Source: Vanrija pseudolonga
Taxonomy: Eukaryota; Basidiomycota; Tremellomycetes; Trichosporonales; Trichosporonaceae
Reading direction: 5' to 3'
Length of the DNA: 64,000 nucleotides
NCBI RefSeq assembly: GCF_020906515.1
Contig: NC_085854.1
Location: 248,001-312,000 of the forward strand
The notes under the pieces: model-generated
Seen by the model: only the letters and a program-made list of their open reading frames with translations
Databases searched by the model: none
What the model was told of the DNA's origin: nothing
Made by a program: the position numbers and the translations under genes
Part shown: positions 18,716 to 48,425 of the stretch, piece after piece
How positions within the stretch are numbered: the stretch's first letter is position 1
Layout of the letters: every line of letters begins with the position of its first letter

Positions 18716-21022
18716 CTACAACGTGCTCTGGCTGTTGCGCGCGTTGTTCCCGCGCGGGCGGGACGGGTCGTAAGCGGGGGGCACGCGCTCGACGACCGGT
18801 GGGCGTCCAAACTCGAGGATGACATTCGCGCCCGAGTCAACCTCCTGGATGGGGATGGGCAGCGGCGGGGGCGCCGCGCTGCCGGAACGTACGCGCACCT
18901 CGGGGACAGGCAGCGGCCTGCGGGCGCGGGGGACGATCAGCTCCGCGCCGTACCCCGACCCCGTCTCATTCTGCACGTGGAGCAGCGAGGACGAGCGGCG
19001 CTGCTCCCAGCTCTTGTGGCCCGTGCTGTCGCGCGAGCTCGTCGCCTCGCTCGTCGCGTCCACCAGCTGCTGCTGCTGCTGCTGCTGCTGGCGCGTATCC
19101 ACCGCCGAGGCGTTGCTCTGCGCGCGCGTGTCGAGCGTCGCGATAGTCGGGGTCACCATCGAGTCCCGCGCTTGGTCGCTCGTATTGCCCAGCAGGCTGG
19201 TGTGCCCCGTCGTGTTGGTCACGTTGGTCGTGCCGAGGTCGAGCGTCGTGCGCGAGTTGTGGTACGGCACAAGGTTGGGGTCAGAGTGTGCGTGTTGCGT
19301 GTCGACCATGAACGGCGAGGCGGGCGGCGGTCTGCAAGCGGAGGTCACTAACTGCCACAGGGACCAACTTGACTGCATACTCACTGCTTCTTGTACCGGC
19401 CGAAGAGGAACCAACCGACAGCTACGCAGAGCGCTACAGCCCCGACGAAGGTACCGACCTGGAGGTGGTTGGACCATGATCACGGCAGAAGCAGAGATAC
19501 TCACGATCACTCCGGCGAGCTCGCCGGCATGCAGGCGGATGGTGCCTGCCTCTACCGACGCAGCATGAGGTGCGCTGATTGAGGTGGTGTGCGTGGTACT
19601 GTTGGTACCGTTGGAGGGTGTGCTGCTGGTGCGAGTCAGTCAGGCAGGTAATGGCAGAGATGGAGAGAGGCAGGCACTTACTGGTCGGTCATGTACTCAA
19701 CGCCGTAGATTTCGATCCAGGCATTCGAGCTGACTTCAATCATGATCATGTAATCTGATACATTGGGGTCAAGCACGGCGAATCCCAATAACTGCCATGG
19801 GGCATAGTATGGTGAGTTGGCGGTGTAACTGGCTCCCGGGTTGAATGGGGGCACGGGCGAGATGGTGAGCGTGTAGTCTGAGAAACCAAAGCCGATCGAG
19901 CCGTAAATCTCGAAAAACGTCGTCCCAGCCGGGATTTTGAAGTGCAGAAACTGTCCTTTCACCTTGGAGCGCAGGACCTTGTAGCCTTGAGGAGGTTGGA
20001 ATGCCAACCAGTCCTCTGTAGCAGGGAAACAGAGTAGTCAGTTGTGGACGTTCGAGTGAGGGCCTGCAGCAACGTGCCGCTACCAGGCTCAGAGATGCTT
20101 GCACAGACCCACCTGACACCGGTTGCTGCTGTGGCGTGTAAACCTCCCATGGTTGTCCGTCTGCGCTCATGAAACTACTGGACGCCATGCCGGTTGCGTC
20201 GACGGCAAAGACCCTGTTCTTGGAGGTGCTATGGCCGTCTACCAACAGCCCGCTGCCGTGCGCGTGCGCGTGAGCACAGGCCCTACTTAATCGACACCGC
20301 TCCGCTCGCTCGGCAACTCACCCCTGCACGCCGGTCGTAATTAGCACCTCGAGGACCGTGATCTGGGGACTGGTCGACACGACGCTCAGCGAACACGAGT
20401 GCAGGCCCCAGGCGAGATTGCGCGCGAACGCGAGTTCTCCCAGCGATGTCGTTCCGAGATTGGGGCCCACGGACGCCATGGTCATGGGTATGCCGTTCAT
20501 CGTCATGACCATGGGCGTCGCCGTCGTGGAGGGGGGCACGGCGGACCCCCCGGCCAGGGTGGGCGGCGCGAACATGGTCGAGGTGAGGCCCATGGTCGAC
20601 GCGGCCGAGGACGACGTGTCGCATCCCCACACGACAATGTCGTTGGGCCCGCCGACGCCGATGATGCTGATGCCCGTGCCGACGAACTGGATGTCGATGT
20701 TGGCGCTCCTGTTCCCAAGCGAGGTGGAGCACGCCGCTTCTCCGAGACCGAGTGGGCCAGACGTGCTGTTGCTGTTCAGGCTCGCGGGGAACGTGAGGCT
20801 CCACGCGATGTCCGGCGTGCCGAGGTTTCTGGGCGAGAAGCGCACGACGGGCGAGCTGACGGGGAGGGTGTAGATTGCTTGTTGGGGAACGGGGATGTCG
20901 CGCGCCGTGAGCGCGTGCGGCACCGAGGCGGCAGCGACGGTGTTCAGGCCGAGCAGAAGGGAGGAGGCTGCCAGCCGCGCGAAGGTGGCAGCTGCTGGTC
21001 GGCGTCTTCGGCGAGCGGCCAT
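18716..21022 (-). CDS. Receptor-like type I membrane protein, copy A (PPAY tail)
   Basis: First of nine paralogues. Six exons: 21022-20322, 20252-20113, 20015-19682, 19625-19505, 19458-19385, 19331-18716, giving 661 residues, the longest copy. The signal peptide is basic then hydrophobic (MAARRRRRP, then LAASSLLLGLNTVAAAS). Ectodomain 1 begins IPVPQQAIY and has a unique insert of about 45 Ser/Thr/Met-rich residues after VVWGCDT. Ectodomain 2 runs GYKVLRSKVKG to YGVEYMTDQ. The membrane exon reads VGTFVGAVALCVAVGWFLF with stop-transfer GRYKKQ. The tail carries a run of eight Gln, LLHVQNETG, RRPLPVPEV, DSGANVI and VERVPPAYD. PPAY is a WW-domain ligand consensus. The start at 21022 is the first ATG that gives a signal peptide; earlier in-frame codons are not needed. 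Function is unknown; a surface sensor or ubiquitin-ligase adaptor is inferred only from the layout. Confidence 0.85.
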
Positions 21023-21688
21023 GGCGGTGATGCAGTAGTGGCAAAGGCTCTGTCGAGAGAAGGTGAGGACCAAGTAGCTCGCCGCTGGCAATGTTGTTTA
21101 TAACCCTCACCTCTGCACCACCAGACTTGCGGCCCGTGAGCGGAAATCCTGCGAGGAGCGTGTACAGAATCCAGGAACCAGCTGAACCGAGCTCGACTGG
21201 AACCAAGCAAGGCGTCAGGCAGCGGTAGCCTGCCGCGTGCCGACGAGACGGAGACATGCCACCAGGCTCGACCGGACGTGGCTGATCGCGAGAAGCATAG
21301 CTCGACACCGCCACAAACGCCTGATCGCCGCGTGACCCGCCACCAAGTAGAGCAGCCGCACCGAACCGAGGTGGCCGTCCCCTCGTTCCTCGGACCGAAC
21401 CCAAGTGAGATGGGGCGGTGTCTGTCCCGCTGACGCCCCATGCGTGCTGAGGCGACTTCCCAACGTGCATACTTGACTAGCCTCGGTGTCGCTTGAGGAC
21501 ATTGCGGCAACGCGTAGAGGCCAGTGAGTGCTCTGACCACCTCGAGTCATACTTCTCACGGACACTGAACGTGTTATGGTCCAAGCGCCTACAATAACAA
21601 AGCTGAAATGTCCCCCTGCCTCCACTCGCCGAGCAACGTGCCGGCGCCACCTGTGGCGCGATGCGCACCCCCACGGGGAACGTAAGTA
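21023..21688. other. Intergenic, promoter side of copy A
   Basis: Holds the upstream region of copy A and the 3' end of copy B. No TATA-like box stands out; no gene supported. Confidence 0.5.
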
Positions 21689-23762
21689 CTATAGCTTGCC
21701 TTCCCTCGTGGTCATCATCGCCGGGGCACGTGAGTGATCGTAGGCAGGAGGGCCGTGCTCGACGACCGGCGGCGGTCCCATCTCAAGCAGCGTCTCCGAG
21801 TCCACTGCCTGGATGGCGATGGTGGGCGGCGGCGGGACGGGCGGAGAGGGAAGTGGGCGATGGCGAAGGCCTGGTACACGGGCGGCAGGGGGGACCACTT
21901 TGGAAGGGAGGGGATCGGCGTCGACGTTTGACGGGTCTCTGTTCTGGTCCTGCAGCCAGGACGTGGGACGTTCCACGCCCTTCGGAGGTGCTTCGCTACC
22001 TGGCGAGCCACTCGCTAGGTCGTTGACTGCCGTGACGGCCGCATGTCCGTCGACGGGTGTACCGGTGCTACTGCTGGGCTGCTCATTGACAGTGTTGGAG
22101 TTAGTGCCTTCGATGTTCGTGTCCGACGTCACTGGAATGAAGTGTGAGCAAGCGAGCGCGAGTCTTCGGGCACGATGGAACGTACATGGTGATGTGGCGG
22201 AGGTGGTGTTTGGGTCAACATTCGACGGAGCGTTCTCTATCACGGTGTCGCTGAGACCACTTTCTTCGTGCCGTTGACTGACGAATGTCAATACTGTCAT
22301 TGTCACCTACTGTATGGCGCCGCTGACCGTCTTTTATTGTACTCCCTAAAACCGACATTACCCGCGACTCCGATGGCGATACCGAACAGAAAGGTGACGA
22401 CCTGGGGCGTTGGCTCGCGGTATATCTAGTCAAGAACTCACAATTGCACCCGCTAGTCCCCCGACGGGCACGCCGTTGCTGCTGCCAGCTTGAACGTTAA
22501 CAAGGCTGGAGGTTTCACTGGGTGGGTCGCGTTAGACGGCTGAGTCGGGGCACCCTTCAAGTGCTTACTGGGCGGTCAGGTACGCGATGTTGTAGATCTC
22601 GAGCCAGCCGTTGGTCGACGACTCAAGTCGGAGGGTATAGCTTACGCCCGGGTCGAGCACGGCAAAGCCCAGAATCTGCCACGGGGCGTAGTAGGGTGAG
22701 TTGGCAGAGTACCGCGTCGTGGCGGGGGGGTTGAACGGCGGCGCGGGGGTGATCGTGATCGTGTAGTCTGCGAACCCGGCCCCAATCGAGCCGTACAGCT
22801 CGACAAACGATGCGCCGGGTGGAACGTCGACTTGGAGAAACGTCGTGTAGGGGACCCGAGACTCGGCGCGGAGGACCGAATAGCCACCAGCTGGGAACAT
22901 GCTCGCAGCTGACCGGCAAACGTCAACGAGAGAGCCATGTTTGGATACGCATTTGTGCGTCTCACGAGCCCATCGCGCAACGTGCATACGTACCTGAGGC
23001 GCTTTGGTTCGGAGTGTAGACCGCCCACGGCGTGTCTAACGGCTGTGACCCCTTAAAAGCTGGGTTCGCCTTGCCGCTACTGTCGACAGCGAAGAGGCCA
23101 ATCTTGCCCCCACCATGGCCGTTCACGAGCAGTCCACTGCACGGTGAGCGTCACCCCCACGCAAGAGCGCCCACTCACCCCTGCATACCGGTGAGCAGTA
23201 ACACCTCTTGGACGGTAGTCTGCGCCGTGGAGAAGATGTTGAACACGCACGAGTGGAGCCCCCAGTCGAGATTGCGCGCATACGCGAGCTCGGAGAGCCA
23301 GTACGTGCCGACCCGGTCCGTGTTGCTGCTGTTCAACGCGTCGCACTGCCACGTCGTGTGGTCTGCCGGACTCCCAGTCCCGACGAGCGCGATCCCCGTG
23401 CCGACAAACTCCACAGCGACGGTCGTGTACGACGATCCCCCGACGGCGCTCGTGGTCGCAGCGTACCGCGGCTGTCCGACCCCGATGGCGCCGGGCGTGA
23501 AGTTGCCACTGGTGGGAGTTTCAGAGTACGTCAAGTTCCACGCGCTCCCCGTCAACCCTGTGGCGGGGGGCGAGAACCGCACGATGAGCGAGTTGACTGG
23601 CAGGCTGTAGATGACCTGCTGGGGGATCGGGATGCCGCTGTTGTCGCGCGTGGAGAGGGAGTGACCATGCGCCACGCTCGCCGACGCAGCCGGTTGCACT
23701 GCGACGAAGCAGGTACCTAGGAGCTGCAGTAGCGCTGCCGCGCGGCGTCTTCGGACGATCAT
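21689..23762 (-). CDS. Receptor-like type I membrane protein, copy B (PPAY tail)
   Basis: Six exons: 23762-23179, 23136-22994, 22908-22569, 22517-22442, 22401-22328, 22277-21689, giving 601 residues. Signal peptide MIVRRRRAAALLQLLGTCF. Ectodomain 1 starts IPIPQQVIY and has FVGTGIALVG and LDWGLHSCVF. Ectodomain 2 has FVELYGSIGAGFADYT and ends YNIAYLTAQ. The stalk ends GVPVGGLAGAI; the membrane exon reads VVTFLFGIAIGVAGNVGF then REYNKRR. The intron after it has a GTCAGC donor, weaker than the others, so this junction is less sure. The tail has RPLPSPP (class I SH3 ligand form), a decayed DSETLLEM in place of DSGAxVI, and EHGPPAYDHSRAP. Within the tail, 22185-22132 is 54 nt, in frame, and framed by GTACGT and CAG, so it may be an optional intron (583 residues if removed). 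Confidence 0.8.
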
Positions 23763-24066
23763 GGGCCGTCGTCGTCGTCGTTCGAGGTGTCGAGGGAGAG
23801 GAGGGGCAAAGAGCTGGGCTGGGCGCTCGGTCGCCATTTAACTGTTTACACCTTCACGGCTGGCTTCAGGGGGCAAGAAGTCACGCACAAAGCTGAGGAA
23901 CAAAGCCCAGGCCACCACAAGTGGCCCGGCACGCATGGTTGCACCTGACATAGCTACAGCGTATGGCAAATCTGTCCAGTCTTCGAACTCTCGACTACGG
24001 TTGCGGCGGCAGGTTCACCGCCACAACAGGGGCTTGACAACACCCGTCATGCTACGCAGACCACGG
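23763..24066. other. Short intergenic gap between copies B and C
   Basis: About 300 bp with the upstream region of copy B and the end of copy C. Nothing else seen. Confidence 0.6.
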
Positions 24067-26174
24067 TCAGAGACCCGTGTTGTTGCCGGGAGCACGCGCG
24101 TGGTCGTACGCTGGCGGAACGTGCTCGACGGGGCCGGCATAGTGCTGCTGCTGGACGGGTGGGGCGGGGGGCTGGACATACTGGATGATGATGTTCGCGC
24201 CCGAGTCGCGCTCCTGCAAGGTTTGAAGCGGGAGAGCGATTGGAAGTGGCGCGGGGGCGGACGTGCCCGCTTGCTGCTGGGGCAGGGCTGGCAGCCCGCG
24301 CGCCGACTTGGTGAAGCCCGACTCGGCGGTAGAGCTGTCTTGGTTGGAGACGTGGAGCGAGTACCCCCGGCTCGTGCGCCCTCCGCTGCCGCTCGAGCTC
24401 AGCATCTCCTCCGTCGGTACACCGAGCATTCCACCACGTGAGTCGAGCGGGGACGTCGGACTCAAGGGCCGCACGCCTGTGACCGATGTCATGACAGACT
24501 CGCGTTGAGTCATGTCTGGGTGTGGCATCAGCGGGACCAGCTCTTCGTGGTCGCGGCGAAAAGTGAGCGTACCAGGGGCAGGTTCTGCCTGGGGGAAGGG
24601 GTCGACCTCGGGGTGGTCGACGATGAACCGGCCCGCTGAAACCGGTTTGCTGCAAGCCCGGTCAGCTGGCTCTAAGTGAGGTCTATCGTACTCACTTTCT
24701 CCGCTTGTATTGATTAAAGACAACCAAGCCGATCACCGCGCAGATGGCGGCGCCCCCTAGCAGGCCACCAACCTTGGTGGCACTCAGCACTATCCGGGGC
24801 TACCACTCACAATGCCGCCTGCAAGTGCACCGACACTGATGCCAGTTGATGTACCACCGCTATGAGTTGAAACCGTTGTTCCACTGTACTCCGTCAGCCA
24901 GACACCCGCCTGACTCGCTTTCCACCCACTTGTCGGTGAAGTACTGGACAGCATAGACTTCCATGGTCCCATCCGAGACTGTGTCGACGCGAAGACTGTA
25001 GGTGATGCTCGGGTCCAGAACGGTAAAGCTTAAGACTTGATTTGGGCTGTAATAAGGAGAAAATGGGACGTAAGGCCCATTCGGGGGACTGAAGGGAGGC
25101 GTAGGCGTGAACGTGACGGTGTAGTTTGCAAAGCCCCACCCGGCCGTTCCCCACAACTCTATGAAGGAGGTTCGCGGGGGCACCTTGTACGTCACCGAGG
25201 ACCCAGAGGTGTTGGTACGCAGAACATAGTAATAGTCGGGCGCAGCTGGGAACGATCCTTGTTCCTCTGGTTTAAAGGGAGACCTAGTGTCAGCGAGCCA
25301 CTCGGTAGGAGCCAGTTGTAAGGAGAAGCAGATTCTTTCTGAACCCTCCAAGGAGCGCTTTTGGGGCCCATGTATCTTGAGGGCCTGCGCGCACGTAGAC
25401 TCACCGTGACCACCCTGGAAGGGTTGATTGACCTCCCAAGGCGACCCATTTGCCTGATGACTACTCCAATCGGCAGTTAACATCTTGTTGGGTTGGACGG
25501 CATGAACTTTTGTTCTTGCCCCACCTGGGCCATTCCGCAAGACAGCGCTGAGGATGTGTGAGTGCATTCCACTGCAGGCCACTCCAATGAGAACCTACTC
25601 ACTCCGGGATTCCCGTCAGTATGAGGAGTTCGGTGACAACAACTTGTGCACGAGTCGTCTGCACGGCGATATCGCACGAGTGCAGGCCCCAAGAAAGACC
25701 ACGAACCCAGGCGAGTTCACCCTGCCAGGAATTTAAACTGTCGAGGTCTGGAGATTGGTTGCCGTCGCATGTGATAGCCACATTGTCAGTGTCTCCGGAA
25801 GTGCCGAGGATCGAAATGGCGGTCCCTACAAAGCTGACGTGGAAGGTTGCAGCGCTGCTGTTGAGAGAAGTCGTATAGGCCACGTTTCCCACCATAATGG
25901 CGTTGGGATAGAAGGTGGACGGCGTCAGACCACTGCTTGTCATGTTCCAACCGACCGAAGCGGGTCCCAAAATGCGAGGGTAGAATTGGAGAGTGGGCGA
26001 ATTGGCAGGAATTCCGTACAATGCCTGCTGGGGCATCGGAACTACGCCGCCGCCGCCTGCGGCGAGGGCCATGTCAATGGAGAGGGTCGTTGCCAGCAGC
26101 AATGTGAGCATGACTTGAGTCGCGAACAGGGTGATGGCGGTATACCGGGGTCTTCCCATCGTCGTGGACAGCAT
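24067..26174 (-). CDS. Receptor-like type I membrane protein, copy C (PPAY tail)
   Basis: Six exons: 26174-25603, 25547-25405, 25266-24930, 24883-24811, 24772-24696, 24649-24067, giving 594 residues with all phases in agreement. The start may instead be the ATG at 26159 (MGRPRYTA). Signal region FATQVMLTLLLATTLSIDMA. Ectodomain 1 opens VPMPQQALYGIPANSP; ectodomain 2 has FIELWGTAGWGFANYTVT and ends VQYFTDK. Stalk ends STGISVGALAGGI; membrane exon VGGLLGGAAICAVIGLVVF, then NQYKRRK. Of the three minus-strand copies its tail is closest to the plus arm: it keeps ELVPLMP, SLHVSNQ, RGLPALP, LQERDSGANIIIQYV and VEHVPPAYDHARAP. RGLPALP fits RxLPxxP exactly. It looks like a bridge between the two arms. 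Confidence 0.85.
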
Positions 26175-26895: not shown

Positions 26896-28646
26896 CTAAG
26901 CCTCGGTGTCCGCGTCCTCGTCTCGTGCCCCGCCAGCAGACTCGGGCATGTGCTCGTTGTCCGCGACCGACATGATAGCGAGGGTGAGGAGGGCCAGGCC
27001 AAGGTTGAAGACCCAGACGCGGTGCAAGCCGTGTGCATATGCGTCGACGGCGATGCGCCGGATGTGGCTGGGCAGGCCAGGAATGATGGTCGTAGAGTGG
27101 CGAATGGCGTCGACAAGCGCTCGGTCTGACAGCTGAGCCGTCAGGTCAGTTTCGAGGGTCGCCTGAAGGATGGCTGCGGATAGGGCAACGCCGAGGACCT
27201 GTCCCACAGTGCGGAACATATAGGTCATGGACGTTGCGACGGCGCTGAGGGTCAGCAGGGCTCGGACCTGTTCGCTTACATTTCGCTCCGCCCATTCTTG
27301 GTCACCTCGGCAATGATCGCCACGAGCGTGCTCGTCAAAGCGCCGGCGTACCCAAATCCGGCAGGCGTCGGCGCAAGCCAGGTGAGCCACTCTGGCACCT
27401 CGGTTGTCCACGTGAGCATGAGCGCGCAGCTGATGACGATGAGCACGCCGCTGAACATCATGGCGGGGTAGTAACGGCCCGTGCGGCGCATCGCGTATCC
27501 TATCGCAAGGGATCCGAAGCCGATGAGGACCGAGTAGGGTAAGAGGTGGGCGCCAGCAACGCTCGAGCTCTGCAGGCGCACGGCGGTGAAGAAGAGCGGC
27601 ACGTTGTAGAGCATGGAGAAGATGCAAGCCGCCATCGTGAGGTTCGCGAAAGCGACGCTCGCCGGCGTGCGGCGTGTGAGCAGGCTGAGGGGGAGGACTG
27701 GCTCGGCAGCATACTTGCCCTCAATGGCGAGGAAGATGCCAGTGAGGACGAGGGACCCGACGAGGAGGCCAACGACGAGTGGGTCCGACCACGCGTACTC
27801 GCCCCCTCCGGGCTTGGACGCCGCGGTCTTGAGGCTCACGCCAAGGAGGAGCGACCCGATAGCGGCAGCGAGGAACGTGCTCCCGGCGTAGTCGATCTTC
27901 TTGAGCTTGTCGGACCACGAGGCGTCGTCGTCGCCGCCAGCTCCGAGCGAGGAAGGCACGAAGATCAGGATGGAGACGACACTGGCAGCCAGGAGAGGGA
28001 CCTGGGCCGAGAATGCGGCGCGCCAGCCAAACGTGTCGGCGCACCAGCCACCGACTGGCCCACCGAGACTTGCACCCAGGCCGAACAGTACGTTTGCGTA
28101 GCCTTGATACAGGCCACGGTGTCTAATGTCGACGAGGTCGGAAAGGAGGATCGAGCCGACCGAAGTCAGCCCGCCGCCGCCGACGCCGGCGAGCACGCGG
28201 GCAGCGATGAGGGAGCCCATGCTCGGCGCAACGGCGCACGCCGCAGTGCCGAGGGTGAAGGACCCCAGGGCGACGAGGAGCGCGTTCCGGCGGCCCAGGG
28301 CGTCCGACAGCCGCCCATACACGGGGGTAAAGGAGCACAGAGAGAGGAGGTATGCTGTGCCGAGCCAGCTGGCCTGGTTGAGCGCGTTGAACGAGCTGCC
28401 GATGGACGAGAGGAGCGTCGCGACCACCGTGCCGTCAAAGGCCGCGAGGAAGGTCGCCGACCAGATCGCGAGGCAGGCGATGTGGAAGCGCCAGGCGGGC
28501 AGGCCGGCGAGGTTGTGGTGTCCCCGCGACCGCGGGCGGCGCGCCTCTCCTTCCTCCGGAGAGCTGGCAGCAGCGACAGCGGCGTAGCTCCGCCCGTTGG
28601 TGTGCGCGACGAGCGGCGCGCGCTCGTCAGCATGCGTGTGTGCCAT
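26896..28646 (-). CDS. MFS transporter, DHA2/Vba-like (14 helices)
   Basis: Predicted proton-coupled major facilitator. The best match by eye is the fungal DHA2 group that includes vacuolar basic amino acid transporters (Vba) and related drug exporters. Two exons, 28646-27280 and 27244-26896, give 571 residues; the intron between them is only 35 nt (GTAAGC donor, CTGAC branch, CAG). Motif C-side FDGTVVATLLSSIGSSF and NQASWLGTAYLLS in helix 1-2, motif A GRLSDALGRR after helix 2, and DIRHRGLYQGYANVLFGLG are all typical. After the intron the frame gives SMTYMFRTVGQVLGVALSA, the expected late-helix motif, which supports the splice. The first 50 residues are a soluble Ser/Arg-rich arm. Substrate cannot be read from sequence. 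It sits between the two arms of the receptor-like family and faces away from the PQ-loop gene with a shared promoter region. Confidence 0.9.
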
Positions 28647-29614: not shown

Positions 29615-31836
29615 ATGGGCGGCGACGAAGCTCTTGCAGAGTGGTTTGGCCTCCTGTCCATCGGGTTCTGGCTCTGTGCCCAGCTCCCGTGAGTGCGCTG
29701 CTATCAGAGCTTGCTGACTCCCCGCAGGCAGGTGATCAAGAACTACCAGCTCAAGTCGTGCGATGGCCTGTCCCTGCCGTTCCTTGTCAACTGGCTCTTC
29801 GGTGTGTACCCGCCCCGCCGCCGCCCCATCGGCGGTTCTGACGATCATCGCGATGCGCGCCACTGACTCCATCATAGGCGATCTCACAAATTTCATCGGT
29901 TGTGTGCTCACCGACCAGCTGCCGTTTCAGGTGAGTTCCGCGGTGTCGGAGTGGACGGCTCCCGAGGTTGTCTCGGCGGTGCCGACGGCGACAAGACGGC
30001 GCGGCGTCTTCGGCGTCATTCCACGTTGCCGTGCTCACACGCCCAGACCTACCTTGCCGCCTACTTCTGCGTAGTCGACGTCACACTTGTCGGCCAGTTC
30101 TTCCACTACAGGCCCAAAGTTGCTGCAGCGACGCCAAGGCAGAGCTCGCTCTCCCACCCCTCACCGCGCACCTCGCTTATCCTTCCCCCACCCGCCCAGC
30201 GCGACCGGTCCCATGTCCGGAGCACGACATTACCTGGTGGCGGACCACCATCACCAACCCCGTTGTACGGCCATGTCCATGGTCACGCGCACGCAAACAG
30301 CTTACCGTTGACACGGCCGACGAGTGGGCGCGGCACCAGGCGCGGACGACCGCCCCTTTCGCGTGACCCATCACAGGGCGACTTTAGCCGCCTCCCGACG
30401 ACCGACTCAGCAGAGGCGCTGTACGCTGCCGCGCTCGATGTTGCGCGTGCCGCGGAGCGCGTCCACGCCCGGAGGTCAACAAGCAACCGCCCCCGCCCTC
30501 GCCATGCTGCTACTGTACCAGCGCCTCGGTCAGACTCTCAAGCCGCATTAAACAGCACGCAGAGCGAGGTGTCGTTACATTCAAGCAGCACCGATGACGA
30601 GGACGAGGACGCGGCTCATGCGCGGTTAACGCAGAGCGTTGGCGCGCTCGCCGAGCCGCGCGGCCGCACTCTGACGCGCAACTCGACTGGCCTGGCCACG
30701 CCGCAGAACGAGCTGGAGCAAAGCGACACACTCGACGACCTACGCGACTCGCACGTCCTCGAGATCCGGCGCAGGGTAGGCAGCCGCAGCCAGAATCGGA
30801 GCGGGAGCCAGGCGCGTGCTCGTGGCTCGGGGCGCAGGGCGGCCACTGTCGCCTTCATGGGGCTGGGGCTATTGTTCTGGCGCGGGGCGGTGCCTGGTGT
30901 GGTCGTCCCCCGCGGTGGTGGTGGAGAGGGACACGTCGTGGAGCGGATAGAGCAAGTGTCGGCCGCGTCCTCGGTCTCGGCATGGCACACTGCGCCTTTG
31001 CACCCGCCAGTGCTTGGCTACCGACCGAGAACTTTCGTCACGTTCGAGGACCCGGAGGACCCGCGCGACCCGCCTCCCCCGCCGCCACCCAAGGACGAGG
31101 AACCGGATCTTAAAGAAGTCATTGGACGCATATCGGCGTGGTGCTGTACCACGCTGTACCTGACGTCGCGTCTGCCCCAGATCTGGAAGAATGTGAGCGC
31201 CAGCACCGCCACCCCACCCCACCGCACCCCCACTGACACCCCCCACAGTTCCAGCGCAAATCCGTCGAAGGCCTCTCGATCCTTCTCTTCATCTTTGCAT
31301 TCTTAGGCAACGTGGCGTACGTCGCGTCGATCGTGTTCCGCCCGGCGCCACCCGGCGAGGGCGCACACTACCTGCTCAAGGCCCTGCCTTATCTGCTCGG
31401 ATCCGGAGGGACGCTCCTCTTCGACCTGACGATCATGATCCAGTCGGTGATTTACGGCTCGGCGCCACCAGTGCCCGAGTCGCCGCTCGACCACCCGCGG
31501 CCCCGGCGCACTTACTCGAGCCGCCGTCGCCCGCGGCACGCCGACACATGGTCTGCTGGGCAGCACGCGAGCTTCCACGCCGAAGATGGATTGGCCACGA
31601 GCGAGCGCCGCCCTCTGCTTTCGGCTGGTGCGAGCCCGATCCGGACGACTTCCGACGCCTGGGGCGCGCGTAAGGACAGCGGGACGAGCGCCCACAGCTC
31701 GGGCGGCAGCGCTGGGAACTCGGGCCTTGTGATGACTAGCGGCGGCGGCAGCGCGAGCGGCCTCGGCGTCCGGCTGTACGGGAGTACTGGCGACGCGAGC
31801 GCCCCAAGCGCAGGGGCGAGCCCCGGCGGACAGTAG
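29615..31836 (+). CDS. PQ-loop transporter (Ypq/Stm1-like, cationic amino acid)
   Basis: Predicted seven-helix PQ-loop carrier; yeast relatives (Ypq1-3) move lysine and arginine across the vacuolar membrane. Five exons: 29615-29688, 29728-29801, 29878-29930, 30047-31192, 31249-31836, giving 644 residues with all phases in agreement; introns are 39, 76, 116 and 56 nt. The first PQ motif is LPQVIKNYQLKSCDGLS (split by intron 1), followed by LVNWLFGDLTNFIGC. The second is LPQIWKNFQRKSVEGLS (split by intron 4), followed by LLFIFAFLGNVAYVASI. Between them lies an unusually long hydrophilic loop of about 280 residues rich in Arg/Ser/Pro with acidic DDEDED, and the C-terminus adds about 120 Ser/Gly-rich residues. 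This loop makes it much longer than yeast Ypq proteins. It is the start of the plus-strand run that leads into copies D-I. Confidence 0.9.
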
Positions 31837-37994: not shown

Positions 37995-39923
37995 ATGCGG
38001 TACCTCACGATCGTCTCGGCGATAGTGCTGCTCGCGTCTATGCTCTCAGGCCAGGTGCGCGCGGCATCCCCTTCGTCCTCCTCCTCCCCCGCCCCCGCCG
38101 TCTCACAGAACTCGACTTTCCCGATGCCCACCCAAGGCATCTACGTGTTCGGTATCAACTCGCCCGTCATCCAGCTCTCGCCGACCGCTATTGGGCCCTC
38201 GAACCAGACATGGAACATGACGTACTCGAACGTTTCGTCCTCCTCCTTCGTACCCGGCATGCTCGGTCTCGGACAGGCAAGCTACGCCACGTCCCTGTCG
38301 GGTGCGTCTCTCACCTTCCAGTTTGTCGGCACTGGCGTTTCGCTGCTCGGATCGGCGGGGTTCTTTGACGTCCTCGACTGGCGCGTTGACGGCATTTCGG
38401 TCAACCCGGACGGGAGCACGACCGACAACCAGAACGTAGGCTACGGGTGGGAGTCGGAAGTGGCGTGGGCCCGCGACCTCAAGTGGGGGCTGCACACGGC
38501 GACGCTGGTCTTAAATGCTATTTACGAAGGGGTCGTGCTGCGTGAAATCATGATTCTGACCGGAATCCAAGGGTGAGTCGCCCACCAGGGCCGACGCTGA
38601 CACTAGCGCTGTGCTCACCGACTCACCTACCGATCCGGTACGCAAGATCACGTACAGTGTCGACGGCACGAATCCGAACAAGGATCTGAACCTGACGGGA
38701 AATTGGGCGGTCTACACTCCCAACGAGGGCGACACGCGTGAGTAGAGATATTTTCTAGGCGTCCGACCCAACTACAGCAGCTCACACTTGCAGTGTCCAA
38801 GTTCGCCTACCCTCCCTCGGGGTACACCGTCATCCGTACGAACGCCACCACCACCACCTCATCGCTCAGGTTTGCCTTGCCCAGCGGCATATCATATGTC
38901 GAGCTCTGGGGGTCCACCGGCTGGGGCTTTGCAAACTACACGGTGATCCTCACGCCTCCTCCACCGTTTAACCCCCCCGTGGGCCCGTACCAGGGGAACA
39001 CCGCATACTATGTCCCGGCGTACATCCTCTCATGGGCCGTCCTTGATCCGAATGTGAACTACGTTCTGGAATACAAGGCTTATGGAGGTTTGGCTGAGGT
39101 ATGGAGTGTGCAGTACTTCTTTTCCAAGTGCGTCGCGACTCGGCAGGTTGGAAGGGCTGACGGAAGTACCACGACGCCAAAGGCCGTCGTCGAGACTGGC
39201 AAGAAGGGAAGCAGTATCCCAGTCGGAGCGATCGCCGGCGGCATTGTGAGTGTGACCTTTGGATGGAGCTGACGCAGGCGGCCGCACTCCTCGTAGGTCT
39301 AGCACTCTCGGCCCTCGTCGCGATGGCGCTCTTCCGCGCCTACAAGAAGAGGCAGTACGTCAATCTGTCCTGCTCGGTCCACAGCTGATCTCTCCTGCAG
39401 TAGGCCAGCACAGCTAGTCTTCGAAGCCGACCAGGGACGCGAGACCACCCCGCAGCCGTTCTACTCTCCAAGCTCACAGGGGCCGGCACACTTCGGGTAC
39501 GGTGACGGCTTGCTGGGTCTCAATCCCGCCCCCGGCGCGTCCAGTCCCCCGCCCATGAGCCCCACGTCGCAGCCCACGGAAACAAGCAGCAGCGGTAATG
39601 CCTCACGCTCGAGTCGCCACACCAGACCCTCGATGCACGCCGTCAACGACCCGTTCGCACCGGCGACCTTCAAGACCCCGCGCGCGTCCCTCAGCTCAGA
39701 GCAACCGCACGCTCGCGTCTCTGCCCCCGCTCCCCTCCCCGTCACGGTCCAGGAGCGCGATTCCGGCGCCCAGGTCATCCATATCGTCGAGTATGTGCCA
39801 CCCGCGTACGACTCCAATCTGCAGGCCGCCGACAGCGTCGGCGCCACCCCCTCGCACGCAGGGGTCGCCGATGATCCTGCCAAGCCCCGTGGTGTGCGCC
39901 CCCTCCCCACCACGCCCCACTAG
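37995..39923 (+). CDS. Receptor-like type I membrane protein, copy F (PPAY, RPLPxxP tail)
   Basis: Six exons: 37995-38572, 38607-38737, 38794-39127, 39167-39245, 39278-39354, 39401-39923, giving 573 residues, the shortest open copy. Introns 34, 56, 39, 32 and 46 nt. Signal peptide MRYLTIVSAIVLLASMLSG. Ectodomain 1 begins FPMPTQGIYVFGINSP (a variant first residue) and has FVGTGVSLLGSAGFFDVL. Ectodomain 2 has YVELWGSTGWGFANYTV and ends VQYFFSK. Stalk contains KKGSSIPVGAIAGGI; membrane exon AAALLVGLALSALVAMALF then RAYKKRQ. The tail is shortened around the MQGY region (SQGPAHFGYGDG in its place) but keeps PSMHAVNDPFAP, TFKTPR, QERDSGAQVIHIV, EYVPPAYD and ends RPLPTTPH. Confidence 0.9.
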
Positions 39924-40635: not shown

Positions 40636-42751
40636 ATGCGCTGCCTTCTCACCGCCGTCGCGGCGTTCCTGCCCGCGATTGGCGCACATGTGCTCGCGGC
40701 CACTTCGTCGGCTCTCTCGGTCCCGCCTCGCCCAGTGTCGTTCAGCAATTCGAACGGCATCCCCATGCCGCCCCAAGGTATCTACCCGTTCAGTGTCAAC
40801 ACCCCACTCGTCCAAATGACGCCGACCGGCCTCGGCCCGCCGTCGCAAGTATGGAACATGACGTACACGAACATATCCTCCTCGGACTTTGTCCCCGGTA
40901 TGATCGGTCTCGGTCAAGCGCAGTACACGACCACGCTGGGAAGCACCACGGGAATGGGCACCGCAAGTTTGTCATTCCAGTTTGTCGGGACTGCTGTGTC
41001 CTTCCTTGGATCCGCCGGCTTCTTTGACGTCATCGACTGGCGGGTGGACGGTGTGACCGCCCTGCCTGACGGTAGCAACGGCATAAACCCAGACATGGGC
41101 TTTGGATGGTCAGCCGAGGTGGCGTGGGCGCGCAACCTGGAATGGGGGCTACATAACTGCACACTCGCTGTTACGACTACGTATCAGGAGGTTATGCTGC
41201 GGGAAGTCATCATCGTGACCGGCATTCAGGGGTGAGTGGCTAGAAGGGGTGGTACAAGAGAAGCTGACACTCATAGTGCGACACTCGCCGACACCCCCAG
41301 CGACAAAAAGCGAATTCAGATCAACGCCGTTGAAGATACGAATACCCCGAGTGCTAGTTTCAATAAGACGGGGAATTGGTATGTCTTCACACCCCCCGAG
41401 GGGGACACTCGTGAGTTGAGTTGTTCGAGATGTTTTGGCGGCGGTGTGGTGTATGCAGTAAACGGTCTTGCACAGCAAGGCTTTTTACCTTCACTCAGGC
41501 CTCGATCTCTCGCTGGACACTCTCCTTCGCTGTCGCTAACATTCGTGCTCTCAAAGTCACCCGCGATTCCTTTCCCACCACAGGCTACACTGTCCTCCGA
41601 ACGAACGAAACCGGGTCCCTGCGCTACAAGGTACCCAAAAACACAAGCTACATCGAGGTTTGGGGGTCCACGGGGTGGAATTATTCCAACTACTCCGTCA
41701 CGCTTACGCCGCCGCCACCTTTCAACCCGCCGGTATTCAACTATTCGGCCAGTACCCCCTACTATGTGTCCGCGTATACCCTTTCATGGGCCATTCTGGA
41801 CCCCAGTGTGAACTATACGCTGGAGTACAAGACGTATGGTGGCCCTGCCGAGGTGTGGCAGGTGCAGTACTACCTTGCTGAGTGGGTCTGGCCGTGGCCT
41901 GAGTTGGACTGACGGCAGGGAGACGCCTGTCAAGAGTACGACCACCAACTCAAACTCAAAGGCGGGTGGTAGCGGCATGTCCGTTGGTGCTATCGCCGGC
42001 GCAGTCGTAAGTTTCCAGCAGGAGCAAGCTAACCGCAGGTTGGTGCACTCCTAGGTGGGCTGGCAATCGCAACACTAGTCGGACTCGCCCTCTTCCGGCA
42101 GTACAAGAAGAAGCAGTGGGTTACTCTCACCCCTGTGCCTCGGCCCGCGCGCAACGCCGCTCACGCCCCAGGCCCAGGCGCGAAGTTTTTCAAGTGGACA
42201 GCGGAAGTGACACCCGCCCGGACCCCTTCTACAGCAATCCAGGTGCGTAGCGGCGAGAATGCACCCCGTTGACGTCAGAGACACAGGGATACGGCGACGG
42301 CCAGCTGGGACTCAACCCCGCCGGCAACGCGACGAGCCCGACCTCGCCCATCCGCTCACAGCACACCGAGGACACAAGCAGCTCTGGCGGTCCGAGCTGG
42401 AACTCGAGTTCCAACACGGGGCCCACGATGCACGTCACGAACGAAACCCTCGCACCGGCGACATTTAAGACCTTGGCCACCACGCCTAGCCCACAGGCAG
42501 ATCGACCCCACCCGCGAATCTCCGCCACCGCTCCCCACCCCGTCACGGTGCAGGAGCGCGATGCTGGGGCCCAGGTCATTCACATCGTCCAGTATGTGCC
42601 GCCCGCCTACGACAACAGTCTGCGCCCTGCGAACATCGCCACAGCGACGGTCGATGCCAGGAGCACTGGGGCGAGCACATCGCACGGAATGATCGCCGAC
42701 GATCCCACCAAACCTGGCGGTGTGCGCCCCCTCCCCAACACGCCAAGCTAG
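40636..42751 (+). CDS. Receptor-like type I membrane protein, copy G (needs an extra intron)
   Basis: Exons 40636-41231, 41277-41410, 41557-41881, 41919-42006, 42039-42115, then the tail from 42172 to 42751. Signal peptide MRCLLTAVAAFLPAIGAHV. Ectodomain 1 has IPMPPQGIYPFSVNTP and FVGTAVSFLGSAGFFDVI; ectodomain 2 has YIEVWGSTGWNYSNYSV and ends VQYYLAE. Membrane exon VGALLGGLAIATLVGLALF then RQYKKKQ; the intron before it is 32 nt. The tail frame meets TAG at 42248-42250, 25 codons into the exon. That stop lies inside a 36-nt in-frame segment (42243-42278) with a GTGCGT donor, a TTGAC branch and CAG; if it is spliced, the protein is 587 residues and the tail joins PFYSNP to ETQGYGDG. Without splicing, the protein would end just past the membrane and lose PPAY and RPLPNTPS. 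So either a gained intron or an early pseudogene. Confidence 0.75.
42243..42278 (+). other. Candidate 36-nt optional intron (exitron-like) in copy G tail
   Basis: Length is a multiple of three, borders are GTGCGT and CAG, and it holds the only stop of the exon. The matching segment in copies D, E and I is also exactly 36 nt with GTGC at the left and AG at the right, but open and apparently coding (VPLMSE). Confidence 0.55.
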
Positions 42752-43472
42752 ATACCATGAAACAGGACTTTGGGTTGAGGCGGCCTGTGTACTGAGAGAT
42801 GAATGCATATAGTAATGTGTGTGTTAAGGACCCAAGCGTGGGTATGAAGGAAGTATTAGAAGAACTGTCAAACTCGGGCCTCGCGATGACGACCGGTGCC
42901 GTCAGCTCAAGTCGGTACTGTAACTCAGTCCATGCGAGCGCCCCGAGCGGAGCAACCACCCCGAACCTAAGGGTGAGAATAAGTGTACGGGCAAGTACAT
43001 GAAAGGGCAGACAGACGGTGCGGTGCATGTGCCGGCGTACCCATGTCTTTGTGGGCAGACATGATGACCTGACTGAGGTTAATCCCCAGGCAGCGCTGCC
43101 CGCACGGAGTGTGGCGGATGGTGGAGGAATGGGGTGACGGCGCCGCGAGTCCACAGGGCCGACGCCATGGACGGGATACACATGTTGAGTACTCCGTGCT
43201 GTGCAGCGCCGGTGGCCATTCCGGGTGCCTTCGGGATGGCCTAGATGGCGACAGGCCGCTGTAGCCATCCAGGACATCCGTGCCATCCGCACACCCCATC
43301 CACCCACACACCGCTTCGCGCTTGGCGCGCACGCGCACCGGCCCTCAAAGCGACACCACGGCGATCCAAGCTGGAGGGCTTTGTGTCAGCGGTGAACGCG
43401 TTACACAGCTGCTGTTGACATTCCGTCCTCTCTTCTCTTCTCCCCACTCTCTCATCCACTGCACACAGAATC
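42752..43472. promoter_or_regulatory. Intergenic G-H, promoter of copy H
   Basis: Same blocks as before copy G (see there), plus AACTCGGGCCTCG shared with the E-F gap. A degenerate GTGCTGTGCAGCGC lies about 265 bp before the ATG. No gene. Confidence 0.55.
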
Positions 43473-45594
43473 ATGCGCTATCTTCTGGCGCTCGTCGCGG
43501 CGTTCCTGCCCGCGATCGGTGCGAGAGTGCTCGACGCCTCGGTCTCGGCACTCTCGGCCCCAGCCCCAGCTGCGCAGGTCTTGGCCAGCGGCGCAAACAA
43601 CACCATCCCCATGCCCCCGCAAGGCATCTACCCGTTCATTATCGGCTGCCCCATTTTCCAATTGACGCCGACGGTGCTCGGGCCTCCATCCCAGACTTGG
43701 AACATGACGTTCTCGGAAATCGATTCCTCAAAGTTCGTTCCCGGCATGATCGGTCTCGGTCAAGCGCAGTACAGCACGACCAAGAATGGGACCGGGACAT
43801 CCGGTGCAAGCGTCACGGTCTGGTTTGTTGGGACGGGTATTAGTATCCTGGGATCCGCTGGCTTCTTCGACGTGTTCGACTGGCGGATTGACGGTGGTGA
43901 CGCCACCAATCCTGTCGGCAGCAACTCCGGCAACCAGGATGTCGGGTTTGGGTGGGCAGCCGAGGTGGCGTGGGCACGCGGCCTGGACTGGGGCTTGCAC
44001 AACGCCACCGTAGTTGTGCAGACAACGGAAAAGGGGGTCGTACTGCGAGAAGTGATGATTCAGACCGGCATACAGGGGTAGGTGGGCTGGGGCGGAGCAA
44101 GCTGTTTGCAAAGACCAAGCTGACCCCTCAGCGCGTTCCTTACCGATACCCCCTCCGACAAACAACGCCTAACCTTGGCCGCCGTCGACGGTACTGGTCC
44201 CAGCACGTCAGTCGCTGTGACGGGCAAGTGGGAACCCTTCACTCCTGACGAGGGGGACACTCGTGAGTTGTTTGGTGGTGGCGGAGAGTACCTATGCATT
44301 GTACAGGCAGCCTCATGCTGGCTCCGACGTCGGCCTCTCTTACCCCACGTACTCGCTGACACTCTCTGCCAAAAGCCACTCGCTCAGCCTTCCCTCCAAG
44401 CGGCTACACGGTTCTGCGCACCAATGCCACTGGATCGCTTCGCTATGTCCTGCCAAAAAACACCACCTACGTCGAGGTCTGGGGGTCCACAGGGTACCAG
44501 TTTTCGACATACTCTGTCACACTTTACCCGCCGCCTCCATTCAATCCCCCTGTTCTCAACTTCTCAGCTAGTACAGCATACTACGTGCCATATTACATGC
44601 TGTAATGGGCCATTCTTAACCCCAGCATCAATTACACCCTGGAGTACCAGACGTATGGAGGGCCCGCCGAAGTGTGGGGCATCAACTACTATCTCCCCAA
44701 GTAGGTTTGGGAGTGGAACCCGTAGGGTTAACTACATACAGTGAAACGCCGGTCAACGGCCACACGACGACCACCACTACCTCTGCAGTCACGAAGACGA
44801 CAATCGCGAAGGGAGGTGGCGGAGGGGTGTCCGTTGGGGCTATTGCAGGGGCAGCGGTGAGTTACTCACCCGATAAGGCTGACCGAAGGTCGGCGGCGTC
44901 GTTGGCGGTCTGGTCATCGCGATACTCGTCGGGTTTATCCTCTTCCGACAATACAAGAAGAAGCAGTGCGTAGTCCCTCGTACTCACCCGTCACAGCGCC
45001 ACTCACCGCCCAGGCCCACGCCCCCCGCTTTCGAAGTTGACCATGGGAATGATGCCCGCCCCGAGCCGTTCTACGACAGTCAAGGAACGCGGCAGTACCA
45101 TGAAAGGACCCCGCTGACTCCAAGAAGCACAGGGGTATGGTGACGGCCAGTTGGGGCTCAATCCCACGGGCAGCACGCCTGGCCCGACCTCGCCCATCCG
45201 GTCGCAACATACCGACGAGGGGAGCAGCTCGGGAAGGCCCAGCTGGAATTCGACTTCAAACACGGGTCCCTCGATGCACGTCACCAACAACACCTTAGAC
45301 ACTGGACTCATGAGCAAGACTGCGGCCACCCCGTTGGTGGTGGACTCTCGTCGCAACCGCAGGCCGGCCGCCATCCCCGTCACGGTTCAGGAGAGCGACT
45401 CTGGCGCGCAGGTCATCCACATTGTCGAGTATGTGCCGCCCGCGTACGACCCCACCCGCCCCCACTCGGGCGCTGTTACCAACACGACCGTGAGGCCCAG
45501 CGCCGCCGCCGTGACCGTCGCTGGCACCGAGACCGTCGTGGACGACCCCACCAAGCCGGGTGGCATGCGCCCCCTCCCCTCGACGCCATTTTAG
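43473..45594 (+). pseudogene. Receptor-like family, copy H (probable pseudogene)
   Basis: Closest to copy G. Exon pieces by comparison: 43473-44077, 44131-44262, 44376-44700, 44742-44856, 44889-44965, then the tail from 45014. Ectodomain 1 is open (IPMPPQGIYPFIIGCP, VWFVGTGISILGSAGFFD). In ectodomain 2 a TAA at 44602-44604 stands where all other copies have the Ser (or equivalent) codon of LSWAILDP, a one-base TCA to TAA change. In the tail the frame is off by one at about 45121-45123, where CCAAGAAG seems to have one extra A compared with the expected CCAGAAG; this falls in the same segment that is intron-like in copy G. Membrane exon (VGGVVGGLVIAILVGFILF, RQYKKKQ), QVIHIV, EYVPPAYD and terminal RPLPSTPF are intact. 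Reads as a recent pseudogene, or as a gene that now makes only a soluble ectodomain-1 product. A sequencing error is not excluded. Confidence 0.75.
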
Positions 45595-46363
45595 CTTCAC
45601 AAGACAAGACAGGACGTTATTCAGCTGGGCCAGCTGTGAATGTATAAATGGCATGTATATAATGGCAACTACCACTTAGTGAATGGCTGTGTTCTACAAC
45701 GCACCTAGTCATGAATGGCGGCCGGGATGCCATTCCGACTGGATCAGTCTCACGCGTCTGATTTGTTTCTATTTTTTGCGGTTTTTCCATTTTGGTTCCG
45801 TCGTCGCCTGCTCACACCATTCGTCCTCCCGTCCTGAGATCATGTTAATGTTACATACCATCCACACGTCTAGTCTGCGAGATTGTTGTTGACCGTGTAC
45901 CCACTCCCCTGTTCCACCAGCCCTTCCCCTCACTGCCGCCACCGCGGTCCCCGCCGCCGCCGCCGGGGCTCCGGCACAAACGACGTTGGGCCATAACCTC
46001 TCGCCCCTCTATGTACCCTGGCCGCTCGCGCCTGCCTCGTGCGCGCGAGGCCTGACCTGACCCGATTGACGCCGTTCAGCGGACAAGTGGGCACGGAGAC
46101 TGACCATCTGAATGCACACACTCACCGCTACCTCTCGCAATGGCGATGCGCAATGGCCTGTGCAGTACTACTGGCAGGCAGTGCACCGGCCACCTGCCCT
46201 TCGGCGTCCCCTCGCTCCATTTAACACCACATCGTCGCTCTCGCACGCGCATCGGCCTCATGAGGTGGAAGAGTATTTGTGACTCGCGACGTGAGCGGAA
46301 TGCAAGGTGTCAACTTATCTCCATCCGCAGTCGGTCCTCATCAACATGGCAGCAGCCAGAGCC
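45595..46363. promoter_or_regulatory. Intergenic H-I, promoter of copy I
   Basis: Contains a GC-only GCC/CCG-rich stretch near 45945-45975 and the core of the shared element at 46155. No gene. Confidence 0.5.
46155..46165 (+). promoter_or_regulatory. Shared upstream element core GGCCTGTGCAG (copy I)
   Basis: Fourth instance of the element, lacking only the leading C, 199 bp before the ATG at 46364. Confidence 0.4.
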
Positions 46364-48425
46364 ATGCGTTATCTACTCAGGGCCGTGGCACTGCTGCCCG
46401 TGATCTCGGCTCAGACGACCAACTCCAAGTCGGCCAGCTCGGCCAGCTCGGCCACCGTCTCCGCCCCGCCGCAAGCGTCAACCATCCCAATGCCTCCCCA
46501 GCGCGTGTACCCGTTGGGCATCGACTCGCCCCTGCTCCAGCTCAATCCAGTGGTAATAGGACCCCCGTCGCAAGGGTGGAACTTGAGCTACTCGAACATC
46601 TCAAACAGCCACTTCGTCCCCGGCATGACGGGTATCGGATGGGCGAGCTTTGAGACAACGCTCGCCGGCAGCTCGGGGGCAAGCCTCAGCTTCCAGTTTG
46701 TTGGGACGGGGGTAAGCTTGCTCGGCTATGTGGGCTTGTTTGACGAGCTCGATTGGCGGGTCGATGGCGTGCAGTCCAACGACACCCCGGACTTCGCGTA
46801 CGGGTACCAGTCCGAGGTAGCATGGGCACGCAACCTGCCGTGGGGGCTGCATAATTGTTCGCTGCGCGTGACCTCAACCGATGACAAGGTTGTGCTAACC
46901 GAGGCCATTGTGATGACGGGCATTGAAGGGTGAGTGTGGTGCGAGATGGGCCCGTGCAGCCCTTGCAGGTGACATTACGTGCACAGTGCGCTGACCAGCA
47001 CCTTGTTGCCATCCGCAGTGCGGCACTCGTTTCAAGCTCCGCCGACCCGCTGCGCAAGGGTCCCTCCACCCTTAACGCGAGCGAAATCAACCAGGGGGCC
47101 CAAGTCACCATCAACTGGGCTCTGTACACACCCAACGAAGGCGACTCGAGTGAGTAACGCGGGCCGCCAAAGTGCAGTGATGATGAACACGGACATCCGG
47201 GAGGGCTTCTGCCCTCGCTGCCCAGACCCTGGGCCTCCATCCTCAATTCCTGCTGTCGCTCACTAACGCCCGCCCGCCAGTTATGCAGGCCGCCTACCCC
47301 CCAGGTGGCTATACCGTCTTGACGACCAATAGCACTGGCGCCATCCAGTACACGCTGCCGAAAAACACGGCCTTCGCCGAGGTCTGGGGGTCTGCTGGGT
47401 ATGGGTTTGGCAACTACTCGGTCACCATCACCCCTCCCCCGCCGTTTAACCCGCCTGTTATCAAGTACTCGGCCAACAACGCGTACTACATGCCTGCCAT
47501 CGTCCTCTCATGGGCCATCCTCGACCCGAGCCAGGACTATGTGCCGCATCGAAGTGTGGCAGTTGCAATACTATGTTTCCAAGTGAGTCTTGTGGTGCGT
47601 CGGGCAGGATAACCGAAGTGTGACGAGTACGACGAGTACGCCGACCTCGACGAGTCCCAGTGCCAGCAGCGCGGCGGCGCGCGGCGTGTCCGTCGCCACT
47701 CTGGCCGGCGCCATCGTGAGTGCATGGTTCATACAAGGGCAGAGCTGACTCAGGCCGGCACCATCGTCGCGTGTCTCGCCGTGTCGTCCCTGGTGGCTTT
47801 TGCCCTCATCCGCAAATACAAGAAGAAGTCCGAGTACGTCATCCCGCCGAACCGCTGAGCTGATTCCAGGTCCTCACGACTCGCGTTCGAGGTCGACCAC
47901 AGCCCCGAGCCACACCTGGCGCCATTCTTATCGAACCGAGGTGCCCATGCCGTCGAGAACACCCCGCTAATGCCAGAAATGCAAGGACACTCCGCCGGCG
48001 TCTTAGGTCTCGACGGTGACCGTGCCGCACACAGCTCGAACACGTCACTCCCCCGACCAAGAGAGCATACCGTCACTTCGAGCTCGGGTGGAGCCGACCT
48101 CGACGGCGATAGCGACACGCGCCGCCAATCGTCGCTGCACACCGACTCGCCACCAATCCTCATCAAGACGCCGCCCCGCATCTCCACGCCCGAGCTCCAT
48201 CTTCAGCCCCGCCGCGGCACGGCACCCGTACCCCTGCCCGTCACGGTGCAAGAACGCGATTCTGGCGCCCAGGTGATCCATATTGTCGAGTACGTGCCGC
48301 CCGCGTACGACGCCACCCTGCCCCACTCGAGCGCAGTGGTCGCCGCGAGCCCGACTGATGCCGTCGACGACGACCCCTTCAAGCGGGACGGCTTGCGCCC
48401 CCTCCCTACTCTGCCGCCCGCTTAA
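46364..48425 (+). pseudogene. Receptor-like family, copy I (frameshifted in ectodomain 2)
   Basis: Most distal and most divergent plus-arm copy. Start at 46364 (MRYLLRAVALLPVISA) by alignment to MRYL of E, F and H; an upstream in-frame ATG at 46346 is possible. Exons 46364-46929, 47019-47149, 47281-47582, 47619-47715, 47754-47833, 47870-48425. Exon 3 is 302 nt instead of 325: about 23 nt are missing between DYV and EVWQLQYYVSK, so the frame shifts and closes about 25 codons later at 47612. The membrane exon (AGTIVACLAVSSLVAFALI, RKYKKKS) and tail (VENTPLMPEMQGHSAG, QERDSGAQVIHIV, EYVPPAYD, RPLPTLPPA) are open and well kept. The lesion therefore looks young, or the gene gives a secreted ectodomain only. 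It ends about 150 bp from the end of the convergent minus-strand gene. Confidence 0.75.

Follow-up and report, generated by a model that had tools for sequence, protein, structure and literature searches.

What are the proteins encoded by a tandem array of nine receptor-like membrane protein genes in a basidiomycete yeast, and what could their tails do inside the cell? The array lies in Vanrija pseudolonga contig C6:248001-312000, a stretch of 64,000 nucleotides (nt) that was analysed as a whole and is called the window here, within a genome of 24.87 Mb on nine contigs. An earlier note on this DNA described the nine copies, lettered A to I here, as an apparently undescribed, fast-evolving family with diverging outer domains and tails. 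We find that the array is one branch of an unnamed superfamily of membrane proteins with two ectodomains and a PPxY-bearing tail, and propose that its members most likely work like membrane adaptors or clients of the ubiquitin ligase Rsp5.

Results

The array is one clade of a genome-wide superfamily

Spliced alignment and whole-genome searches placed nine homologous loci in the array, three on the minus strand (A-C) and six on the plus strand (D-I), and BLASTP found all nine copies mutually related. Searched against the genome at E<=0.001, exon 1 of copy E, the type copy, returned these nine loci (A as two pieces) and one weak place elsewhere; its match on contig C3 has an E of 6.4e-6. The C3 gene (C3:481-483k) carries both ectodomains, a GAIVGGVVGG-type helix and a tail reading RRLPELP...ERDTG...LPPTYDPSW, and a search in the other direction, from its ectodomain 1, led back to copies of the window with E values of 5e-7 and below 1e-4. 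When this ectodomain 1 and ectodomain 2 of E were used as queries, related exons came up on C1-C4 and C6 (E<0.01), ectodomain 2 of E itself matching 10 places outside contig C6 (E<0.01). Iterated profiles over selected loci then gave 36 genes with ectodomain 2 beyond the window, of which 26 also have ectodomain 1, the scanned DNA having stopped short upstream for many of the other ten. By the searches and the iterated profiles, both ectodomains are homologous between the array and the outside genes. Most of the latter (31/36) sit in eight arrays, with neighbours within 15 kb, and together with the nine copies of the window this brings the superfamily of V. pseudolonga to 45 gene copies or more, counted irrespective of intactness.

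A tree built from 33 ectodomain-1 sequences joined the nine copies and a protein of V. albida in a single clade (support 100/99) with a long branch (2.02). The picture of a nine-copy family is therefore incomplete, as the cluster is a single clade of a much larger set. Within the clade, A, B and C grouped together with weaker support (95/72) and D-I grouped with the V. albida protein (99/99), which suggests that the left-right split predates the separation of the two species. Under a strict test, the helix occupied its own phase-0 exon in 7/36 outside genes versus 0/36 antisense, with a GAI-type helix lacking the own-exon call in a further 12/36 and neither feature in 17/36; a one-exon helix is thus neither peculiar to the cluster nor universal.

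Relatives outside Vanrija were sought in three protein searches, which returned six proteins, all of V. pseudolonga or V. albida. These searches required shared 5-residue words, two of the three limited scoring to the top 8000 candidates, and records of A, F, G or the outside paralogues were likewise missing from the output, so absence elsewhere is not established. PPxY-tailed lookalikes presumably occur in mushrooms.

One outside array (C3:490215-508105; loci L052, L023, L025, L022, L029 and L026) holds nine superfamily genes and looks like three successive repeats of a three-gene unit (one minus, two plus), recurring every ~6.2-6.7 kb. Within the scanned DNA, its gene at C3:494087 (+) is followed by two PPxY motifs, PPPEYKNG near the membrane and PPPSYYG at a C-terminus, the gene at C3:500294 (+) by a C-terminal LPPTYHD, and that at C3:506948 (+) by a membrane-side SPPEYKNG. 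Close to the paralogue at C3:481-483k is a gene that, by eye, looks like an NAD(P) transhydrogenase subunit (L009 ~6900-7800, minus).

A PPxY tail is kept across the superfamily

The tails of the clade share short motifs. Among its ten tails (nine copies and V. albida), which are kin and so not ten independent events, PPxYD occurs in 10/10 (shuffle mean 0.03; 0/2000 shuffles reach this count), RxLPxxP in all except A (9/10; shuffle mean 0.11; 0/2000 shuffles), and D-[AGST]-G in all except B (9/10; 0/2000 shuffles). RxLPxxP is an SH3-ligand-like peptide.

Across the genome, the DNA pattern for PPxYxPxW was found 42 times versus 7 for the reversed pattern, and DxG, with A, D, G, S or T as the middle residue, lay at most 45 residues upstream in 22 of the 30 loci cut out by it. 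Since those 30 loci had been picked by the PPxY pattern itself, we recounted on 20 genes from the ectodomain-search loci, where PPxY was present in 16/20 versus 3/20 antisense. For the whole set of outside genes, PPxY followed ectodomain 2 in 32/36 versus 4/36 antisense, and RxLPxxP in 12/36 versus 2/36. The longer form PPxY[DN]PxW lies downstream of 25/36; the window copies have PPxYD but lack the PxW that follows it in this form. A tail with DxG and PPxY is thus found in the array clade, and the outside paralogues are far more diverged, the motif nonetheless being kept.

A candidate partner is encoded at C3:1202489-1204192, where a single 720-aa (amino acid) frame contains three WW domains and a HECT domain, as in Rsp5. 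The earlier reading is supported in so far as the tail end is conserved and has a likely partner.

The ectodomains are under purifying selection

Conservation was compared by domain among the six right-hand copies D-I (15 pairs, damaged H and I included in the averages). Mean pairwise identity is 62% in ectodomain 1, 61% in ectodomain 2, 52% in the membrane segment, 42% in the mid-tail and 81% in the C-terminal core, the most conserved stretch. Median ratios of nonsynonymous to synonymous substitution (dN/dS), which are rough given high synonymous divergence and one saturated pair of 15 in ectodomain 2, are 0.25, 0.17, 0.36, 0.62 and 0.19 for the same five parts.

The ectodomains are under purifying selection, and the fast-changing part is the mid-tail, not the outer domains. 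We therefore reject fast ectodomain evolution, which had been expected of a recognition family: dN/dS is lower in the ectodomains than in the mid-tail, and the outer domains, described before as diverging, are more alike than the membrane segment. The tails do diverge, as the earlier note had said, and their motifs are kept, in the C-terminal core and as a PPxYD in all nine copies.

Gene models, public annotation and damaged copies

Copy E was modelled by hand and the other eight copies by splice-aware protein-to-DNA alignment. The spliced E model equals its public counterpart (594 aa) letter for letter, and the sole mismatch between our D model and LOC62_06G007898 is a 36-nt stretch that is spliced out in the public one. 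Intron phases of 2,1,2,0,2, proposed for all copies, are exact in 6/9 models (B-G); the A and H models have extra short introns, uncertain in A, where they fall in stalk and tail, and the copy I model reads 2,1,0,0,2. A membrane exon of 74 or 77 nt, likewise expected throughout, was found in eight copies, at 77 nt in C-H and 74 nt in A and B, the value for B depending on a hand-chosen donor (95 nt in the automatic model); in I the exon has 80 nt. The start codon of C is uncertain, with four in-frame ATGs. Signal peptides and topology were assessed by eye, and on that basis the receptor-like architecture of the copies is supported.

Nine homologous loci stand, and nine working copies do not, since H is truncated and I apparently damaged. 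Copy H has an in-frame TAA at 44603-44605, and a genome search with ectodomain 2 likewise shows one TAA there; in copy I, as read by eye in three frames, the family frame breaks off near 47541, where ectodomain 2 ends. About seven of the nine copies look intact. The public annotation of the cluster is partly wrong: LOC62_06G007896 joins pieces of C and B in one model, that of H (LOC62_06G007902, 317 aa) ends at the in-frame stop, and that of I (LOC62_06G007904) runs on with residues unlike the family, which makes one fused, one truncated and one apparently mis-framed model.

Copy G contains an in-frame TAG (42248-42250) within a 36-nt GT..AG segment (42243-42278), and this stop is harmless only if the segment is spliced out, as the G frame needs. 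Corresponding segments occur in D and E (Table 1), and alternative isoforms through this tail segment of D, E and G are possible. Splicing of it would delete 12 residues, among them an LVPLM-like stretch that several copies share.

Coordinates, strands and Pfam bear out an arrangement of three left-facing and six right-facing copies around a core of two transporter genes. The minus-strand core gene matches Pfam MFS_1 in one piece (E 1.7e-39), its second piece having no Pfam match, and shows a likeness to DHA2-type efflux permeases in NCBIfam matches below cut-off. The plus-strand core gene matches Pfam PQ-loop at E 1.3e-8 in its last piece; one piece scores 34.9 bits, above cut-off, and the other 21.4 against a cut-off of 22.

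Table 1. Features of the array, in positions of the window
Feature	Positions	Strand	Details
Copy A	18716..21022	-	two ectodomains; tail ends VERVPPAYD plus short C-terminus; spliced model
Copy A membrane exon	19385-19458	-	74 nt
Copy B	21689..23837	-	membrane exon ~22328-22401
Copy C	24067..26174	-	membrane exon 24696-24772
MFS transporter gene (core, between C and D)	26899..28646 (approximate ends)	-	at least 2 exons
PQ-loop transporter gene (core, between C and D)	29615..31836 (approximate ends)	+	Ypq-like by eye
Copy D	32315..34471	+	public LOC62_06G007898
36-nt GTGCG..CAG tail segment, D	33951..33986	+	open in D; removed in public model
Copy E (type copy)	35060..37122	+	public LOC62_06G007899
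Copy E exons	35060-35664, 35726-35859, 35956-36280, 36315-36384, 36422-36498 (membrane), 36549-37122	+	
36-nt tail segment, E	36620..36655	+	open in E; retained in public model
Tail core of E	36946..37020	+	PLTEQERDSGAQVIHIVEYVPPAYD; DSG, then PPxY at 37006-37017
C-terminal RPLPTTPN of E	37096..37119	+	RxLPxxP
Copy F	37995..39923	+	membrane exon 39278-39354
Copy G	40636..42751	+	membrane exon 42039-42115
Copy H, truncated	43473..45594	+	stop in ectodomain 2
Copy I, apparently damaged	46346..48425	+	membrane exon 47754-47833

No library family passes its cut-off for the proteins scanned

Pfam gave no family above cut-off for A (ectodomain part), C, E or seven outside pieces, the remaining copies being scanned as ectodomain pieces only. 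For 22 first and 27 second ectodomains no family reached E 0.01 (best E 0.011). That best value belongs to CE2_N, matched weakly by 2/22 first ectodomains (E 0.011 and 0.021; profile positions 17-82 and 18-82) with scores of 16.2 and 15.4 bits, where the cut-off is 27.9. In A (ectodomain part), C and E, Pfam returned at E<=1 neither a SPRY domain, as in the Ssh4/Ear1 type, nor a WSC or Mid2 domain. NCBIfam had nothing at E<=1 for the two family proteins scanned (P0001 and P0002), PDB sequence searches of family pieces gave no credible match, and a description of the family was not found in the literature searched, including excerpts of PMC12820176 and PMC12345238. All of this agrees with the earlier remark that no named family fits.

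Several candidates were dropped. Weak PDB matches over short stretches, at E 0.006 or worse, included Tri1, an esterase, CWC25, amyloid precursor, F-BAR, a darpin, gp41, contactin-5, a pirin and others, and the resemblance that the membrane segment showed to ErbB1 and to amyloid precursor protein was put down to glycine-rich helix composition. Homology of ectodomain 1 to ectodomain 2 is not claimed, the profile comparison giving a probability of 1.5% over 22 columns.

Discussion

Our best reading, held with moderate confidence, is that these proteins are receptors or adaptors linking luminal or extracellular recognition to Rsp5. Each would cross the membrane once in type I orientation. Behind a signal sequence come two ectodomains in tandem, which may be lectin-like beta-sandwiches, then a short stalk, one helix in a small exon of its own, and a low-complexity, presumably cytosolic tail whose conserved core ends in PPxY. 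The motif itself is present, and its cytosolic side is suggested by the signal sequence and by basic residues after the helix, both judged by eye. The ectodomain may recognise something outside the cell or in the endomembrane lumen; PPxY would recruit a Rsp5/Nedd4-type ubiquitin ligase by WW binding, and the receptor-like protein, or adjacent membrane proteins, would be ubiquitinated, leading to endocytosis and breakdown. Precedents come from Cryptococcus, whose Rsp5 has C2, three WW and HECT domains and operates with PxY adaptors (excerpt of PMC11481503), and from yeast, where the type I PY-motif membrane protein Ssh4 brings Rsp5 to the vacuolar transporter Ypq1 (excerpt of PMC5507667). The nine copies form one old branch, grown by local duplication, of a set spread over the genome in which the tail type is common and ectodomains differ between branches.

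Several observations weigh against this link to Rsp5. No PPxY was seen in 4/36 outside genes within the at most 1400 bases scanned, and the scan covered three frames without exon models, so that chance or neighbouring motifs can enter. WW domains are also found at other places in the genome (10 matches), and the partner need not be Rsp5. The sole Pfam hint of a fold, CE2_N, is far below cut-off in 2/22 first ectodomains, neither from the window.

The tail could serve a different end. The copies might be surface sensors that relay wall or surface stress, with RxLPxxP binding an SH3 protein, PPxY binding a WW protein other than Rsp5, and ubiquitination serving turnover only. The frequency of RxLPxxP, both in the clade and downstream of outside genes relative to antisense, is in keeping with this, but PPxY is kept more widely (32/36 versus 12/36), and the three proteins scanned have no domain of the WSC or Mid2 type, though an unrelated type of sensor would be compatible with that result; we consider such a role unlikely. 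The two core genes invite another idea, that the copies are dedicated adaptors in the style of Ssh4 and Ypq1, removing the neighbouring PQ-loop and MFS transporters by ubiquitin upon nutrient change. Both core genes do encode transporters, one of them PQ-loop, and a yeast PY-motif type I protein does act on the vacuolar lysine transporter Ypq1 (excerpt of PMC5507667). However, this parallel is suggestive and based on gene order in one genome alone, the one other flank viewed by eye, that of the C3:481-483k gene, lacks such a transporter pair, and the three scanned proteins have no SPRY match. The 4-10 N-glycosylation sequons per ectodomain fit lumen and surface equally, and we regard dedicated transporter adaptors as highly improbable.

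The ectodomain might instead be the working part, as in adhesins or wall-bound lectins that bind glycans in adhesion or mating, with the tail timing removal from the surface. A two-domain ectodomain with sequons, the growth of the array together with decay of copies, and weak hints of carbohydrate esterases (CE2_N in 2/22, and a PDB esterase at E 0.61 for copy E) are all in line with adhesins; on the other hand, neither a long repetitive stalk nor a glycosylphosphatidylinositol-type C-terminus was seen by eye, and the strong conservation of the tail core favours an intracellular role. Adhesion as the main function thus seems quite unlikely to us.

If the tails recruit Rsp5, many ectodomains would be tied directly, and in a way open to testing, to a single ubiquitin ligase, in a fungal order with saprotrophs and opportunistic pathogens among its members. 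A bolder extension, which we put forward as speculative and rather doubtful, is a repertoire of at least 45 recognition proteins with one output, recruitment of Rsp5, in which the ectodomain arrays represent differing inputs. If true, this would be a lineage-grown set of ligand-controlled ubiquitin-ligase adaptors, by which the membrane would be re-shaped without kinase or G-protein signalling. As it stands, a family that counts 45 or more receptor-like gene copies in a single small genome passes no cut-off in the domain libraries searched here.

How do these proteins compare with known systems? CE2_N, the N-terminal domain of carbohydrate esterase family 2, was matched by two outside paralogues and by no window ectodomain scanned. 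Ssh4 has a SPRY domain, whereas the V. pseudolonga copies have no SPRY match, two unnamed tandem ectodomains and many tandem copies; from Sna3, going by the size and topology of that protein, they differ in having a large ectodomain and one helix. The likeness to Ssh4 and Sna3 is the tail motif, and nothing found makes the array a member of either family. As described in excerpts of the respective papers, Ssh4 likewise bears a PY motif, crosses the membrane once in type I orientation and shares its genome with a ligase of the Rsp5 type (PMC5507667), and Rsp5 interacts with PPXY-containing membrane proteins and sorts Sna3 (PMC2171029). The Ali proteins of Cryptococcus are likewise PxY-bearing partners of a basidiomycete Rsp5 (excerpt of PMC11481503), but they are alpha-arrestin-like, whereas the V. 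pseudolonga copies are membrane proteins without a Pfam domain.

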